From an uncultured Mycoplasmatota bacterium (GTDB lineage Bacteria; Bacillota_I; Bacilli_A; RF39; UBA660), in the NCBI GenBank assembly GCA_947652325.1, contig CANTCQ010000004.1:1-64000 (forward strand): DNA of 64,000 nucleotides. Direction: 5' to 3'. Numbering within the stretch: position 1 is the stretch's first letter; every line of letters starts with the position of its first letter. Below are positions 2,563 through 8,657 of the stretch, piece by piece. Made by a program: the position numbers and the translations under genes. The notes under the pieces were generated by a model. It had not been told where the DNA came from, searched no databases, and saw only the letters and a list, made by a program, of their open reading frames with translations.

Positions 2563-3783
2563 TTATTGGTGCAACATTTGTTCTTCTAAAGTACTTTTAT
2601 TTTCATATTTATTGTTTTCATTTATTATGATAATTTTTTGTTCTTTTTCATTCCAAAATATGTATTCTTCTTTTAAAAAAGAAGAATACAATATACAATG
2701 GTCACTTGATAAAGCATTTTGAATAATAAAACTTTTTTCATTTTGGCTATCTTTTTGAATGGCTAATAAAGCCCATTTTATTCGAATTTCTTTATGCAAA
2801 CATTCAGCTTGGAAACATAATTGTTCTATTTCATTCATTAAAAAATTTTTATTTACAGGATTCGTTTTCATTTCTTCTTTTTTATTTCTTGCTTGTCTGT
2901 CCAATTCTAATGCTTCATCCATTTTATTAAATAATCTTTTTAATTCTTTTTTATCTATGTTAGTTTTATCCATAATAAATTCATATAACAAATTTTCTTT
3001 GCCGTTTATTATACAATATAATAAAGTATCTTTTCCTACAATTTCACTTATAAGCAATAAATCTTCATTTTCATGAAAATAAGAAATGTCCTCGTAATAT
3101 TTTGCTATTATAGCGCTGTCATACCCTTCTTCAACTGCAATATGTTCTAAAGAATTTCTTAAAGCATTATGAATGCTTTCATGTGACATTACATTCTTTT
3201 TTTCAGAATTTATTTTTATTATTTCATTATTTTCCGTATATCCTAAAACTATATTATCTTCTTTATTAGTAGGATATTTTACATCATTGTTTGCCAGGCT
3301 GTTCAAAAGATTAATAAATGTATGGATTTGATATTTTTCTCCATAATCAGATAAAATCATTTTCCAAGTTTCTTTTAATTCTCTTTTTTGTTCGGGAGTA
3401 TAATTTTCATTTCTATCAATATATTCTAAACACATATCTATAAGAATTTGATTATCTAACTCTTCTTCTAAAAGTGCTTTTAAATAAAGCTCTGGGTTAT
3501 TTAATAAAACAGGTTTATTTTTTTCAAATTGTTTTTCAAAATAAAAGAGAATTCCTGAAGTAATAAAAGCCATTATTGTATAATAAAGTCTTCTTTTGTT
3601 TCTTAAATAATTTATTTTCTTTTTAAATATTCTTCGTAAATTTTGTTTTTCATGTAATGTTATTATTCTTTCTGTTTCATCTTGTTTTAAACAGATAATT
3701 TGATTTGTTTTTAAATTCATGTAAATTTTATCAATCTCTTCGTTTTTTCGTTTTGCTGTTCCTAAATAATATATTTTTTTCAT
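2563..3783 (-). CDS. Membrane-anchored protein with HExxH motif, putative metallopeptidase
   Basis: I do not recognise the family. The 406-residue product has a basic N-terminal segment (about 48-66), one membrane span (about 69-83) and a long hydrophilic part. Residues 201-205 read HESIH, an HExxH zinc-protease signature, followed 13-14 residues later by EEG (218-220), the spacing and context expected for a third, glutamate zinc ligand. A metallopeptidase is therefore a reasonable inference but no family match can be shown. Topology is uncertain: the basic N-terminal flank suggests N-in, C-out. It sits between hpf and secA on the same strand, 61 bases before secA. Confidence 0.6.
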   Translation of the reverse strand: MKKIYYLGTAKRKNEEIDKIYMNLKTNQIICLKQDETERIITLHEKQNLRRIFKKKINYLRNKRRLYYTIMAFITSGILFYFEKQFEKNKPVLLNNPELYLKALLEEELDNQILIDMCLEYIDRNENYTPEQKRELKETWKMILSDYGEKYQIHTFINLLNSLANNDVKYPTNKEDNIVLGYTENNEIIKINSEKKNVMSHESIHNALRNSLEHIAVEEGYDSAIIAKYYEDISYFHENEDLLLISEIVGKDTLLYCIINGKENLLYEFIMDKTNIDKKELKRLFNKMDEALELDRQARNKKEEMKTNPVNKNFLMNEIEQLCFQAECLHKEIRIKWALLAIQKDSQNEKSFIIQNALSSDHCILYSSFLKEEYIFWNEKEQKIIIINENNKYENKSTLEEQMLHQ

Positions 3784-4728: not shown

Positions 4729-4757
4729 ACAATACCACTTACAAAATTTAGAAACAA
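4729..4757 (-). promoter_or_regulatory. Candidate csp promoter
   Basis: Minus strand TTGTTT (4752-4757), 17 bases, TATTGT (4729-4734). The spacing is ideal but both boxes are imperfect. Confidence 0.35.
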
Positions 4758-4808
4758 CAAAATACGTTCGACAAATTTTGCATTATTTTTTTAATTTTTG
4801 GGTTTATT

Positions 4809-4837
4809 TTGACTTAAAACTAATTTATTCTGATAAA
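4809..4837 (+). promoter_or_regulatory. Candidate agrBD promoter
   Basis: TTGACT (4809-4814), 17 bases, GATAAA (4832-4837), giving a leader of about 90 bases before agrB. No clear paired LytTR-type direct repeats for the AgrA-like regulator could be identified by eye in 4700-4930. Confidence 0.45.
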
Positions 4838-4933
4838 ATAATTTTTATTTCTTTTTTAGACTAAAAACTTTTTTATTTATTTCTATTTTTGTTTACTATT
4901 TGTTAAAAATGCTATGCTTTTTTTGGTGTTAAT

Positions 4934-5530
4934 ATGAAGGAAGTATTTGTAAATCATTCTATTAGTTATCTCATTCGAAATAATGCTTGTAAAGAAAAAG
5001 ATGTTCCTGTATATCGTTATACTTTAGAATCTTTATATTCATTATTTACAAAAACAGTTGGAGTACTATTTTTATCTTTTTTTTGTGGAACTTTAAAAAT
5101 CACTTTTATTATTATGCTTTTGTACTCTTTATTACGGGGATTTACTTTTGGTATTCATGCAACTAAAAATTTATATTGTTGGATTACTACATTAGGTATA
5201 TATTTAGGAAGCTCTTTGTTTATTAAGTATTTTTCTTTCCCTTTATCTAGTATTTATTTTATTTATTTTTTAAGTTTTTTATTTCTATTTCTTTGGGCTC
5301 CAGCTGATACACCATCTAGACCATTATTAAATAAAAAAAAGAGAATTACAAATAAAATGATTTCTTTAATTATTGTTACTTTGTATATTTTATTTTCTAT
5401 TATTATCTCAAATGATAATTTTTATGAAATAATTGGTATTGTTTTATTGTTAGAGGCTATATGTATTTGTCCTCTAACTTATAAATTATTTCATGTATCT
5501 TATAACAATTATAAAAGTTATAAGAAATAA
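4934..5530 (+). CDS. agrB: AgrB-type peptide maturation endopeptidase
   Basis: Membrane cysteine peptidase that cuts the C-terminal tail from AgrD and forms the cyclic signal. The 198 residues hold several hydrophobic spans. The catalytic pair is visible in RGFTFGIHATKNLYCW: His75 and Cys82, with the same seven-residue spacing as His77/Cys84 of Staphylococcus aureus AgrB. A conserved second-half proline-containing segment (WAPADTPSRPL) is also typical. It is followed after 51 bases by the small agrD gene. This and agrD are among the few plus-strand genes of the left arm, so they run against the predicted fork direction. Confidence 0.93.
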   Translation: MKEVFVNHSISYLIRNNACKEKDVPVYRYTLESLYSLFTKTVGVLFLSFFCGTLKITFIIMLLYSLLRGFTFGIHATKNLYCWITTLGIYLGSSLFIKYFSFPLSSIYFIYFLSFLFLFLWAPADTPSRPLLNKKKRITNKMISLIIVTLYILFSIIISNDNFYEIIGIVLLLEAICICPLTYKLFHVSYNNYKSYKK

Positions 5531-5535
5531 TTAAG

Positions 5536-5561
5536 GTTTAAATTTTTATATAGATTTAAAC
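5536..5561 (+). repeat. Inverted repeat between agrB and agrD
   Basis: Perfect 8-base arms GTTTAAAT (5536-5543) and ATTTAAAC (5554-5561) with a 10-base loop. It ends 3 bases before the strong ribosome site of agrD and could influence mRNA processing or translation of agrD; this role is inference. Confidence 0.5.
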
Positions 5562-5581
5562 AAGAAAGGAGGCAATCTTTA

Positions 5582-5701
5582 ATGGCAAATGTATTTGCAA
5601 ATGTACTAACTGCATTAGCTAAAATTGCTAATAATGGAGTTTCAACATTTACTTGGCTTGGATATTGGGATGAAACTAAATGTCCAGAAGAAATGCTTTA
5701 A
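5582..5701 (+). CDS. agrD: AgrD-like cyclic autoinducer precursor, Cys-less ring region
   Basis: A 39-residue peptide with the three AgrD parts. Residues 1-18 form an alanine-rich amphipathic helix (MANVFANVLTALAKIANN). The central part is STFTWLGYW (21-29). The acidic tail is DETKCPEEML (30-39), similar to the C-terminal recognition segment of Lactobacillus LamD as I recall it (ETKIPDEL). The only cysteine, Cys34, is in the tail that AgrB should remove, not in the signal. A lactone through Ser21 (or Thr22/Thr24) is therefore the likely ring chemistry, as in the serine lactone of Enterococcus faecalis FsrD. The ribosome site AAAGGAGG (5565-5572) is the strongest in the region. The gene is too short for most gene finders. 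Confidence 0.85.
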   Translation: MANVFANVLTALAKIANNGVSTFTWLGYWDETKCPEEML

Positions 5702-5763
5702 TATTTAAAAACGCACCATATTAATTTGGAGTTGTCAATAAAAGTGAATAGAAAAACTCACTT

Positions 5764-5805
5764 AAATCCTAATTCATTTCTATATTGAATTGGGTTTTTT
5801 ATTTT
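5764..5805 (+). terminator. Terminator of agrBD
   Basis: Arms CCTAATTCA (5768-5776) and TGAATTGGG (5786-5794), one G-U pair, followed by T6. The rest of 5702-5966 is AT-rich and I see nothing else in it. Confidence 0.8.
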
Positions 5806-5966
5806 TATAAGATTCTTTTTATTAGAAAATTTAAATAAATTTCTTTATTTTTTAAATGTTAATTTCTTCTGATGTTGCTACCATATTATTTATTGATTAT
5901 ACTACAGCTTAAAATCATATTTTTTATCTTGATTTTTATTATCTTTATCCCTAATAATTGTACATT

Positions 5967-6001
5967 AAAAAAAGTAGATCACAAGTTTTTTGTGTCTACT
6001 T
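5967..6001 (-). terminator. Terminator of agrAC
   Basis: The minus-strand stem pairs GTAGA/TCTAC and CACAA/TTGTG around one bulged base, followed by a T run (A run at 5967-5973 on the plus strand). It meets the agrC stop codon. It and the agrBD terminator face each other. Confidence 0.7.
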
Positions 6002-7274
6002 AATTAGCGTTCTTTTTTATTTGTAGTTCTATATAATAGAAATCGTTGATAATATTAATTTTTTCGTTTACTATTTTATTTCTAATTATTGAAAATAAAC
6101 CTAATCCACTTCCTCGATTTTTAGTGGAGTAATATTTTTCACCTAAGTGTTCTAAATCTATTGCGTTACGAAAATTATTTCCTACTTTAAGAAAAATCGT
6201 ATCTTTATTTTCGTATAAATCTATAATAATTATTGGATTATCGGTTTCTTTACTTGCTTCAATAGCATTATCCAAAGCTATGCCTAAGCATTCAGAAATA
6301 TTGTTAAATGCTTTTGGATTTAAATTATTAAAAGGGTCTCCTATAATTTTATTACTAATTAATATATTAAATTGAACATTGTATAATTTTTCTACTACAA
6401 TGCCCTTTATTCCATTCGGAATATTATATAAATTATTATTTTTTATACTAAAATTAGTTTCTTCTTCTAGTAAGTCATCAATTAATAGATTTATTTTTTT
6501 ATTTCCATATGTTTTAAGTGATATTAATTTATTTTTTATATTATGTTTATAAACTTTATATTCATCTAAAAATTTTCCATACTTATCATTATAAATCATA
6601 AGATTTTTATTAGTTATTTGTAATAATATTTCTTGAGTTTTTAGTTTAATAATTATTACGAATAAAACTAAAAACATTAGATATAAAAATATCATAATTA
6701 ATATTGATTCTTGATTACCAAAATTTTTGACATTTAACATTCCTAATAAAGCAATTGTAAAAAATATTAGGTACAAAATATTTATTGTTTTAATATTATT
6801 ATAAAAAAATTTATAAATTTTTCTTATAAATTTATTAAATGAAGGAATACATAAAAATAAAAATTCTGTAATTGCAATAATTCCTGATAATAATAATTTG
6901 AAATAAGTATAATATTTAGATAGATTTGAATTTTCAATTATATTAAATATTCCTAATGTATTTATAATGATAATTTCTATACCTATTAGCAATGTAAATA
7001 CAACAATATATGTATTAAAAACTTTATTAAAATCATCTTTAAAAATGAGTAAAAATTCAGTTAATACAATACCTAAAGTTAAAAACGTTTTTATCCATAA
7101 ATTATTATAACTATTATTTATAAAAACAAGAAAGGAAGTAATAACAATAATACATATATATTTTTTATCATGTTTTAATATACAATCGTTAATTTTTGCA
7201 TAACATAGATTATAAAATTCTACACTGAACATTATAGAAATAAAAAATAAAACTATATTAATTTTCTCGTTCAT
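6000..7274 (-). CDS. agrC: AgrC-type membrane sensor histidine kinase
   Basis: Receptor kinase for the cyclic peptide. The 424 residues show about seven membrane spans within 1-210 and a cytoplasmic kinase domain after that. His244 in YKHNIKNKL is the likely phosphoacceptor. The GHKL ATPase has an N box with Asn336 (ALDNAIEA) and a G box GSGLGL (388-393). This is the HPK10 class found with LytTR regulators. Its start lies inside the end of agrA (17-base overlap), so the two are co-transcribed and translationally coupled. Confidence 0.92.
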   Translation of the reverse strand: MNEKINIVLFFISIMFSVEFYNLCYAKINDCILKHDKKYICIIVITSFLVFINNSYNNLWIKTFLTLGIVLTEFLLIFKDDFNKVFNTYIVVFTLLIGIEIIIINTLGIFNIIENSNLSKYYTYFKLLLSGIIAITEFLFLCIPSFNKFIRKIYKFFYNNIKTINILYLIFFTIALLGMLNVKNFGNQESILIMIFLYLMFLVLFVIIIKLKTQEILLQITNKNLMIYNDKYGKFLDEYKVYKHNIKNKLISLKTYGNKKINLLIDDLLEEETNFSIKNNNLYNIPNGIKGIVVEKLYNVQFNILISNKIIGDPFNNLNPKAFNNISECLGIALDNAIEASKETDNPIIIIDLYENKDTIFLKVGNNFRNAIDLEHLGEKYYSTKNRGSGLGLFSIIRNKIVNEKINIINDFYYIELQIKKNAN

Positions 7275-7983
7275 AATATTCTTCTACCTCCTTTTTAAAT
7301 CTTTTTGATAAATAGTAAACTTTTTCACCATTGTCTAAAACGAAATAACCTTTTGACCAATTAAAAGATTCTACTCTATCTAAATTTACAATACAGGCTC
7401 TATGTACCATTTTAAATCGATTATCTAAAGATTTTAAAGTTTCTGATAAAGGCATAATGATAGAATAATGTGTTCTATCTGTATTTATTATCACTTTTCT
7501 TGATTCTTTATCTCTATAAAGATATGTAATGGAACGATAATATATTTGAATACTAAAATTATTGTTACGATACTTATACATTTTATTGTCAAAGTTTCTT
7601 TTAAATATTGTTATAATTGCTTTTTTTAATTTTATTTCCATATCGTGAAATTTTTCTATAAAATCAAATACTTCATATACACTTCTATAAGTTGTTTCAA
7701 ACATTTTGTCATGATTTGTTATGAATATAATTTCACTTTCCCAATCATTTTCTCTTATAAATTTTGCTATATCTATGCCACTTACTTTCGTTTCTAATTG
7801 AATATCCATAATGTATATTTTTCGCTCGGAAGTATCTAAAATAATATCTTTTAACTCTTTTGAATATTTTGTAAAATAATTTATTTTTATTTCTTCTTCT
7901 TTAAAAATATCTATTTCTCTAAGAATTTTTTTTACTAATAATTGGGTATTTTTATCATCTTCAACAACTACAATTCTAATCAT
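7258..7983 (-). CDS. agrA: AgrA-type LytTR response regulator
   Basis: 241 residues: a receiver domain (about 1-125) with acidic residues Glu8-Asp10 (VVEDD), phosphoacceptor Asp60 (YIMDIQ) and Lys/Thr switch region, then a LytTR DNA-binding domain (about 140-238). The start follows AGAAGGAG. It heads the agrAC transcript, which converges on agrBD. Targets cannot be read from this window; the adjacent agrBD promoter is the obvious candidate. Confidence 0.92.
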   Translation of the reverse strand: MIRIVVVEDDKNTQLLVKKILREIDIFKEEEIKINYFTKYSKELKDIILDTSERKIYIMDIQLETKVSGIDIAKFIRENDWESEIIFITNHDKMFETTYRSVYEVFDFIEKFHDMEIKLKKAIITIFKRNFDNKMYKYRNNNFSIQIYYRSITYLYRDKESRKVIINTDRTHYSIIMPLSETLKSLDNRFKMVHRACIVNLDRVESFNWSKGYFVLDNGEKVYYLSKRFKKEVEEYYEREN

Positions 7984-8057: not shown

Positions 8058-8657
8058 TTATTTTTTGTATTCTTCTAATATAAAATGCGTTGGCAATTCA
8101 GGAAATTTAGTATCTATTTTGTATGTATGAAGAATTTCTTCCGCAATTTTAGGAATATCTTTGTGATTGCCAAATACGATAATTTTTTTAGGTTTATATA
8201 TTTGGGTTACTAGATGATTGATTGTTTTTTTAATATTTTTATTAAATATTTGTAAATCTATATATAGAGAATAAAATACACCTTTTTTTGAAAAATAATA
8301 TTCTATATAAGTATTTACAATTTTTATATAGGCAGTATCATTTTTTGTGTTTACTATATCTTCAATGGATTTAAATTCTATTTTTGTGAAATATTCACTT
8401 AATATCTCTTGATATTTTTCTTTTAAAATATTTGTTATTTTTTGATTACTTATAAAACACCCATTCCATCCAAATAATGGAATTCGAATATGATGTTCTT
8501 TTAATAATCTATTTAATTCATCATAAAAAAGTATTTTATTCACAATTTGTTCTTTATCAATACTTTGAAAATTTTTACTTAAAATTTTTTTTTGTTTTAT
8601 ATCTAATAACAATAGTTCATTATCACATATATTGATTACAAAATGAATTTTACTCAT
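8058..8657 (-). CDS. Unrecognised protein in the mbl position after spoIIID
   Basis: A 199-residue cytoplasmic-looking protein with no signal peptide, 10 bases downstream of spoIIID. In Bacillus the gene after spoIIID is mbl, an MreB-family actin. The predicted alternation is loosely actin/ASKHA-like: an opening strand pair FVINICDNELLLLDI and a late KKIIVFGNHKDIPKIAEEIL where MreB has its glycine-rich nucleotide loop. The phosphate-binding glycines are not evident, so this could be a degenerate actin-like protein or something unrelated. Function unknown; probably co-expressed with spoIIID. Confidence 0.6.
   Translation of the reverse strand: MSKIHFVINICDNELLLLDIKQKKILSKNFQSIDKEQIVNKILFYDELNRLLKEHHIRIPLFGWNGCFISNQKITNILKEKYQEILSEYFTKIEFKSIEDIVNTKNDTAYIKIVNTYIEYYFSKKGVFYSLYIDLQIFNKNIKKTINHLVTQIYKPKKIIVFGNHKDIPKIAEEILHTYKIDTKFPELPTHFILEEYKK

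Follow-up and report, generated by a model that had tools for sequence, protein, structure and literature searches.

The window, i.e. the whole stretch of 64,000 nucleotides analysed here (contig CANTCQ010000004.1 of an uncultured Mycoplasmatota bacterium), contains a complete agr locus in which agrBD on the forward strand and agrCA on the reverse strand face each other in a convergent arrangement. The first of these genes, agrB (4934-5530, +), encodes a membrane peptidase-cyclase of 198 amino acids with the residues His75 and Cys82, which matched PF04647 with 115 bits (E=2.6e-33; cut-off 23 bits) and is the only AgrB in the assembly (1.27 Mb, 90% complete); a search for solved structures related to it by sequence found none. 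It is followed by agrD (5582-5701, +), which has a GGAGG ribosome-binding site, read by eye, on its 5' side and encodes a signal precursor of 39 amino acids, MANVFANVLTALAKIANNGVSTFTWLGYWDETKCPEEML, with the marks of an AgrD beside agrB, an amphipathic leader followed by a short hydrophobic signal and a Pro-containing acidic tail. Its score of 19.0 bits with TIGR04223 (AgrD family cyclic lactone autoinducer peptide) is exactly the curated cut-off. Since every one of the 18 genus members with an identified agrB encodes the same small protein 3' of this gene, agrD represents a real gene rather than a chance ORF. No agrB was found in four genus-mates; two of them carry agrA close to the end of the DNA that was taken, next to the gene of a 199-amino-acid protein (u199) and spoIIID, which looks like broken assemblies rather than loss, and the other two had no SpoIIID match either. 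On the reverse strand, agrC (6000-7274, -) encodes an HPK10-type sensor kinase with a GHKL domain, the predicted receptor, whose kinase part has the S. aureus AgrC kinase module as its closest PDB match (6e52, E=3.7e-12), and agrA (7258-7983, -) encodes a LytTR response regulator matching PF04397 and PF00072 (Response_reg). The AgrA equivalog model NF046049 gave 51 bits for this regulator, far under its 400-bit cut-off, as expected for a protein distantly related to staphylococcal AgrA. A second LytTR-domain gene lies elsewhere in the genome (G000:C1:155717-156004) and scores above the regulator of the agr locus. All components that an earlier note on this DNA had described, namely an AgrD without a ring Cys, an AgrB with intact His75 and Cys82, and an HPK10 kinase and a LytTR regulator beside agrBD, were confirmed by our analysis.

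The sole Cys of the window AgrD is Cys34 in the tail, and the Cys that thiolactone-type precursors carry five to seven residues before the cleavage motif is replaced here by Thr24. AgrB is encoded by 254 of the 386 genomes of the bacterial family to which the window belongs. From the DNA surrounding many of these agrB genes, the AgrD beside AgrB was extracted with a profile built from confirmed cases, resulting in 172 AgrB/AgrD pairs, 138 with a ring Cys (125 curated cases with Cys at -6 and 13 with Cys at -5 or -7) and 34 without. Ring positions were numbered back from the C-terminal motif acidic-E-x-x-x-P, by which the cleavage site was also placed; in L015, whose tail reads AEEECP, the Ser was set at -6 by ungapped alignment with its genus-mates after a first automatic cut had given -7. 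In two genomes agrD occurs in tandem, with two copies each (L163 of G121, and G050:C31:2116-2394), and in L227 (G132) agrC is present in two tandem copies, which suggests duplication of signal and receptor. Outside the family, L240, from another family of the class, has a small ORF 5' of agrB (MKKIGFKLLKKLSMLSFGIAVLSANSASTWFIHQPKEPKELEQLKKRK) with the look of a clostridial-type AgrD and Ser where Cys is expected.

All 34 Cys-less AgrDs possess either Thr (27) or Ser (7) at -6, the position of the ring Cys, which is column 24 of the window AgrD, and three Cys-less cases added later fit the same pattern (Thr in G486 and G476, Ser in G138). Elsewhere in these 34 precursors Ser and Thr are nearly absent, with none at -7, -5 and -3, one at -4, and two each at -2 and -1. 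Gly, Arg, Tyr, Phe and Trp, each a single base change away from Cys, never occupy -6 in the Cys-less AgrDs; the codon change from Cys to Thr takes two base changes, and the one-step intermediate Ser does occur. Judged by genus codes, hydroxyl types are found in ten genera, seven of which include Thr. Within the window's genus, column 24 holds Thr in 16 members, Ser in one (L015) and Cys in one (L018), and the ring Cys of related genera aligns to this very column. The earlier note had proposed an alignment of AgrD homologues and had taken a Cys at positions 21-25 to speak against its own reading of the ring; just such a residue came to light as Cys24 of L018 and in the same column of related genera, which points to Thr24 rather than Ser21 as the nucleophile and to a ring of six residues. 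The predicted ring, Thr24-Trp-Leu-Gly-Tyr-Trp29, is encoded at 5651-5668 (+), with ACT at 5651-5653 as the codon of Thr24. The predicted rings of all 18 genus members differ in sequence, as expected of a diversifying signal, and the preceding NNGVSTF hardly varies. The residue directly before the nucleophile is aromatic in 23 of the 27 Thr types compared to 1 of the 125 Cys types, counts that ignore relatedness; the ring Cys of the latter is usually preceded by Ala or Gly.

Mapping of the Cys/hydroxyl state on the AgrB tree gave ten changes or more, of which six are forced by well-supported branches; most single branches of this tree are weakly supported, and the long-branch pair L040/L057 is suspect. 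The state also changes within the window's genus. With so many switches, the restriction of -6 to Cys, Thr and Ser does not stem from one inherited event. The convergent agrBD/agrCA arrangement is shared by the 20 long regions that were compared, 19 of which adjoin csp-hpf-secA and 13 of which have spoIIQ within reach, and this common arrangement argues for vertical inheritance with a change of the residue, not for the import of another system.

In summary, this is an agr quorum-sensing locus passed on by vertical inheritance, and its signal, as predicted from sequence, is most likely a threonine macrolactone closed at Thr24. In the proposed mechanism AgrB, by means of Cys82 and His75, would cut AgrD after Trp29 and keep the peptide as a thioester, which the hydroxyl of Thr24 would attack to form the six-residue lactone Thr-Trp-Leu-Gly-Tyr-Trp with 19 ring atoms, and a second cut would leave an N-terminal exotail drawn from ...NNGVSTF. 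The exported peptide would be sensed by the adjacent AgrC, which would phosphorylate the LytTR regulator AgrA. In turn, AgrA probably acts as an activator of agrBD. A lactone ring ending at Trp29 had already been suggested in the earlier note, and with no ring Cys it is supported here as the most likely reading. Several points count against a Thr24 ring. The hydroxyl of threonine is a weaker, secondary nucleophile, the AgrB of S. aureus fails even with a Ser-containing AgrD (PMC10482373), and ring size varies within the family, so that -6, given the 13 AgrDs with Cys at -5 or -7, is not an absolute position. The weak support of most single branches of the AgrB tree and the lack of an AgrB residue that follows the switch independently of lineage weigh in the same direction.

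Among the alternatives, the lactone might form at Thr24 and then rearrange by an O-to-N acyl shift, so that the active signal would be an all-amide ring. Exotail-free thiolactone AIPs rearrange in this way, and a synthetic lactone analogue of a Listeria peptide did so partly (PMC11297923), but this requires the amine of the ring residue to be free and thus the lack of an exotail; as the conserved NNGVSTF suggests that an exotail is present, this outcome appears unlikely. It also seems rather improbable that AgrB acts only as a protease and releases a linear signal. Such a peptide would accord with the missing ring Cys, and ring closure is read here from the precursor's letters; however, a linear signal offers no explanation for a -6 column that, through repeated switches, contains nothing but Thr or Ser in all 34 Cys-less AgrDs. 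A further possibility, favoured in the earlier note, is a nine-residue lactone between Ser21 (codon 5642-5644, +) and Trp29 as in enterococcal GBAP, whose ring likewise has nine residues and is closed by Ser. Ser21 is invariant in the genus, but Ser or Thr at -9 is no commoner in Cys-less AgrDs (30 of 34) than in Cys-ring ones (111 of 125), and the four remaining Cys-less precursors carry Glu, Asn, Asn and Asp there. Conservation of the -9 column therefore has another reason, perhaps N-terminal processing. Moreover, genus-mate L018 has its Cys at 24 and not at 21. As the statistics of its column are not those of a ring residue, Ser21 was rejected together with a ring of the GBAP/FsrD type, a reading that is most likely wrong; of the earlier proposal of a ring through Ser21 or Thr, what survives is Thr, then given only as an alternative, in the form of Thr24 and a ring of six residues. 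Closure through Thr22 or the tail Cys34 (codon 5681-5683, +) can practically be dismissed: Cys34 is invariant in the genus, but it belongs to a shared tail motif, with a tail Cys in 51 of the 125 Cys-ring AgrDs alongside the ring Cys, and four Cys-less AgrDs (L021, L037, L069, L190) contain no Cys anywhere, in agreement with the earlier view that the ring is not closed by the tail Cys; Thr22 is replaced by Asn in L015 and varies freely elsewhere.

The AgrB enzymes of the family share their catalytic residues regardless of the AgrD type, as His75 and Cys82 are invariant in 172 of 172 proteins, and Gly73, Pro123, Asp125, Pro130 and Tyr183 are invariant as well. A residue other than Asn at position 65 and Trp83 were considered as determinants of nucleophile specificity because both are tied to hydroxyl-type AgrDs, but an independent-pairs test attributed the association to lineage, and no AgrB residue was found that tracks the Cys/hydroxyl switch independently of lineage. 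The AgrB of S. aureus does not process a Ser-containing AgrD (PMC10482373), which makes a family whose AgrBs accompany Cys, Ser and Thr informative.

Reviews name the Ser lactones of S. pseudintermedius and S. intermedius and GBAP as exceptions to the thiolactones of Agr signalling (PMC12312760, PMC10482373), and these are the nearest precedents for the proposed ring. Similar to the window, the agr systems of S. intermedius and S. pseudintermedius consist of AgrB, AgrD, AgrC and AgrA and use an oxygen nucleophile in place of the ring Cys at the same site of AgrD (PMC12312760, PMC10482373). However, their nucleophile is Ser, compared to the Thr predicted from sequence for the window, and in the family studied here Thr, Ser and Cys alternate at one orthologous locus with convergent agrBD and agrCA. 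The Fsr system of Enterococcus faecalis (FsrD, GBAP) resembles the window in having a lactone instead of a thiolactone ring and an aromatic-rich peptide, but GBAP has a nine-residue ring closed by Ser (PMC12312760), in contrast to the predicted six-residue ring closed by Thr. Clostridial and Listeria Agr peptides share with the window the PF04647-type AgrB and an acidic tail with a conserved Pro, and the rings of some of these AIPs comprise six residues (PMC12312760), the size predicted for the window; unlike the latter they are Cys thiolactones. In both C. difficile and C. perfringens, the peptide does not autoregulate agrBD (PMC10602386). The Cys-ring Agr loci of the same family agree with the window in syntenic position, AgrB residues and convergent layout, and differ in having Cys at -6, usually after Ala or Gly and not after an aromatic residue.

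It is likely that this family of uncultured Bacilli employs threonine-closed Agr signals, which would add a third type of ring chemistry to Cys thiolactones and Ser lactones, that the nucleophile was switched repeatedly between Cys, Ser and Thr at one orthologous locus, and that signal identity can evolve through the choice of ring nucleophile, which these AgrBs tolerate. No Thr lactone was found among Agr signals in the literature searched, with key subscription papers outside our reach, and the novelty of this chemistry is accordingly provisional. Thiolactones are regarded as the rule in Agr signalling and Ser lactones as rare exceptions, whereas one orthologous locus here appears to switch naturally between thiol and hydroxyl, threonine included. 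Natural Cys and Thr pairs within one genus offer a means to ask how AgrB selects the nucleophile and what prevents the S. aureus enzyme from using Ser. In addition, genome mining based on Cys and thiol-trapping chemistry will miss such signals.

Upstream of agrB, about 150 bp before its start, most genus members carry TTTTGTYTWAA repeated at a 21-bp period, beating shuffles, as expected for a target of a LytTR protein. The copy in the window, a candidate AgrA half-site (TTTTGACTTAA, 4807-4817, +), is degenerate and weak, and in five genus members (L004, L007, L008, L012, L013) the best repeat pair was no better than in shuffles. A candidate inverted half-site, TTTTAGACTAAAA (4854-4866, +), emerged from the upstream alignment as a conserved element. 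Across 22 genomes, a search for the exact double motif gave four occurrences, of which three lie 5' of agrB, and the reversed pattern gave none. The fourth occurrence, in L308 (G009:C10:1255-1286), lies away from any agr gene and may reflect chance or a target of another regulator. With these repeats, autoinduction of agrBD is plausible in the genus. A scan for terminators found none, and promoter matches were no more frequent than in shuffles. Another element, ACAAAATACGTTCGACAAA at 4757-4776, lies 5' of both csp and agrB. With hardly any changes among the genus members, it is better conserved than the agrB-proximal region, and it may belong to the divergent csp gene.

The spoIIID, spoIIQ and spoIID genes reported near the agr locus in the earlier note are indeed present, and the locus adjoins engulfment genes in many genera. 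AgrB was found in 241 of 341 genomes with SpoIVA compared to 13 of 45 without (Fisher p=1.3e-7), and in the more complete genomes in 167 of 227 compared to 6 of 24 (p=4e-6), in a cross-tabulation that was read from two lists by hand and ignores phylogeny and genome reduction. Sporulation is reduced in an agrB1D1 mutant of C. difficile (PMC10602386). The suggested control of sporulation by agr thus gains some weak backing from synteny and co-occurrence, but both are confounded by relatedness and the link is only correlative. Two proteins encoded in the surroundings of the agr locus belong to no assigned family. A 406-amino-acid protein with a HESIH (HExxH-type) motif is encoded between secA and hpf (2563-3783, -), and L032 and L033 lack the gene at the corresponding position. 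The 199-amino-acid protein encoded between agrA and spoIIID (8058-8657, -), which matches no Pfam family, is kept at this position in the genus, namely in L032, L033, L236 and L237.
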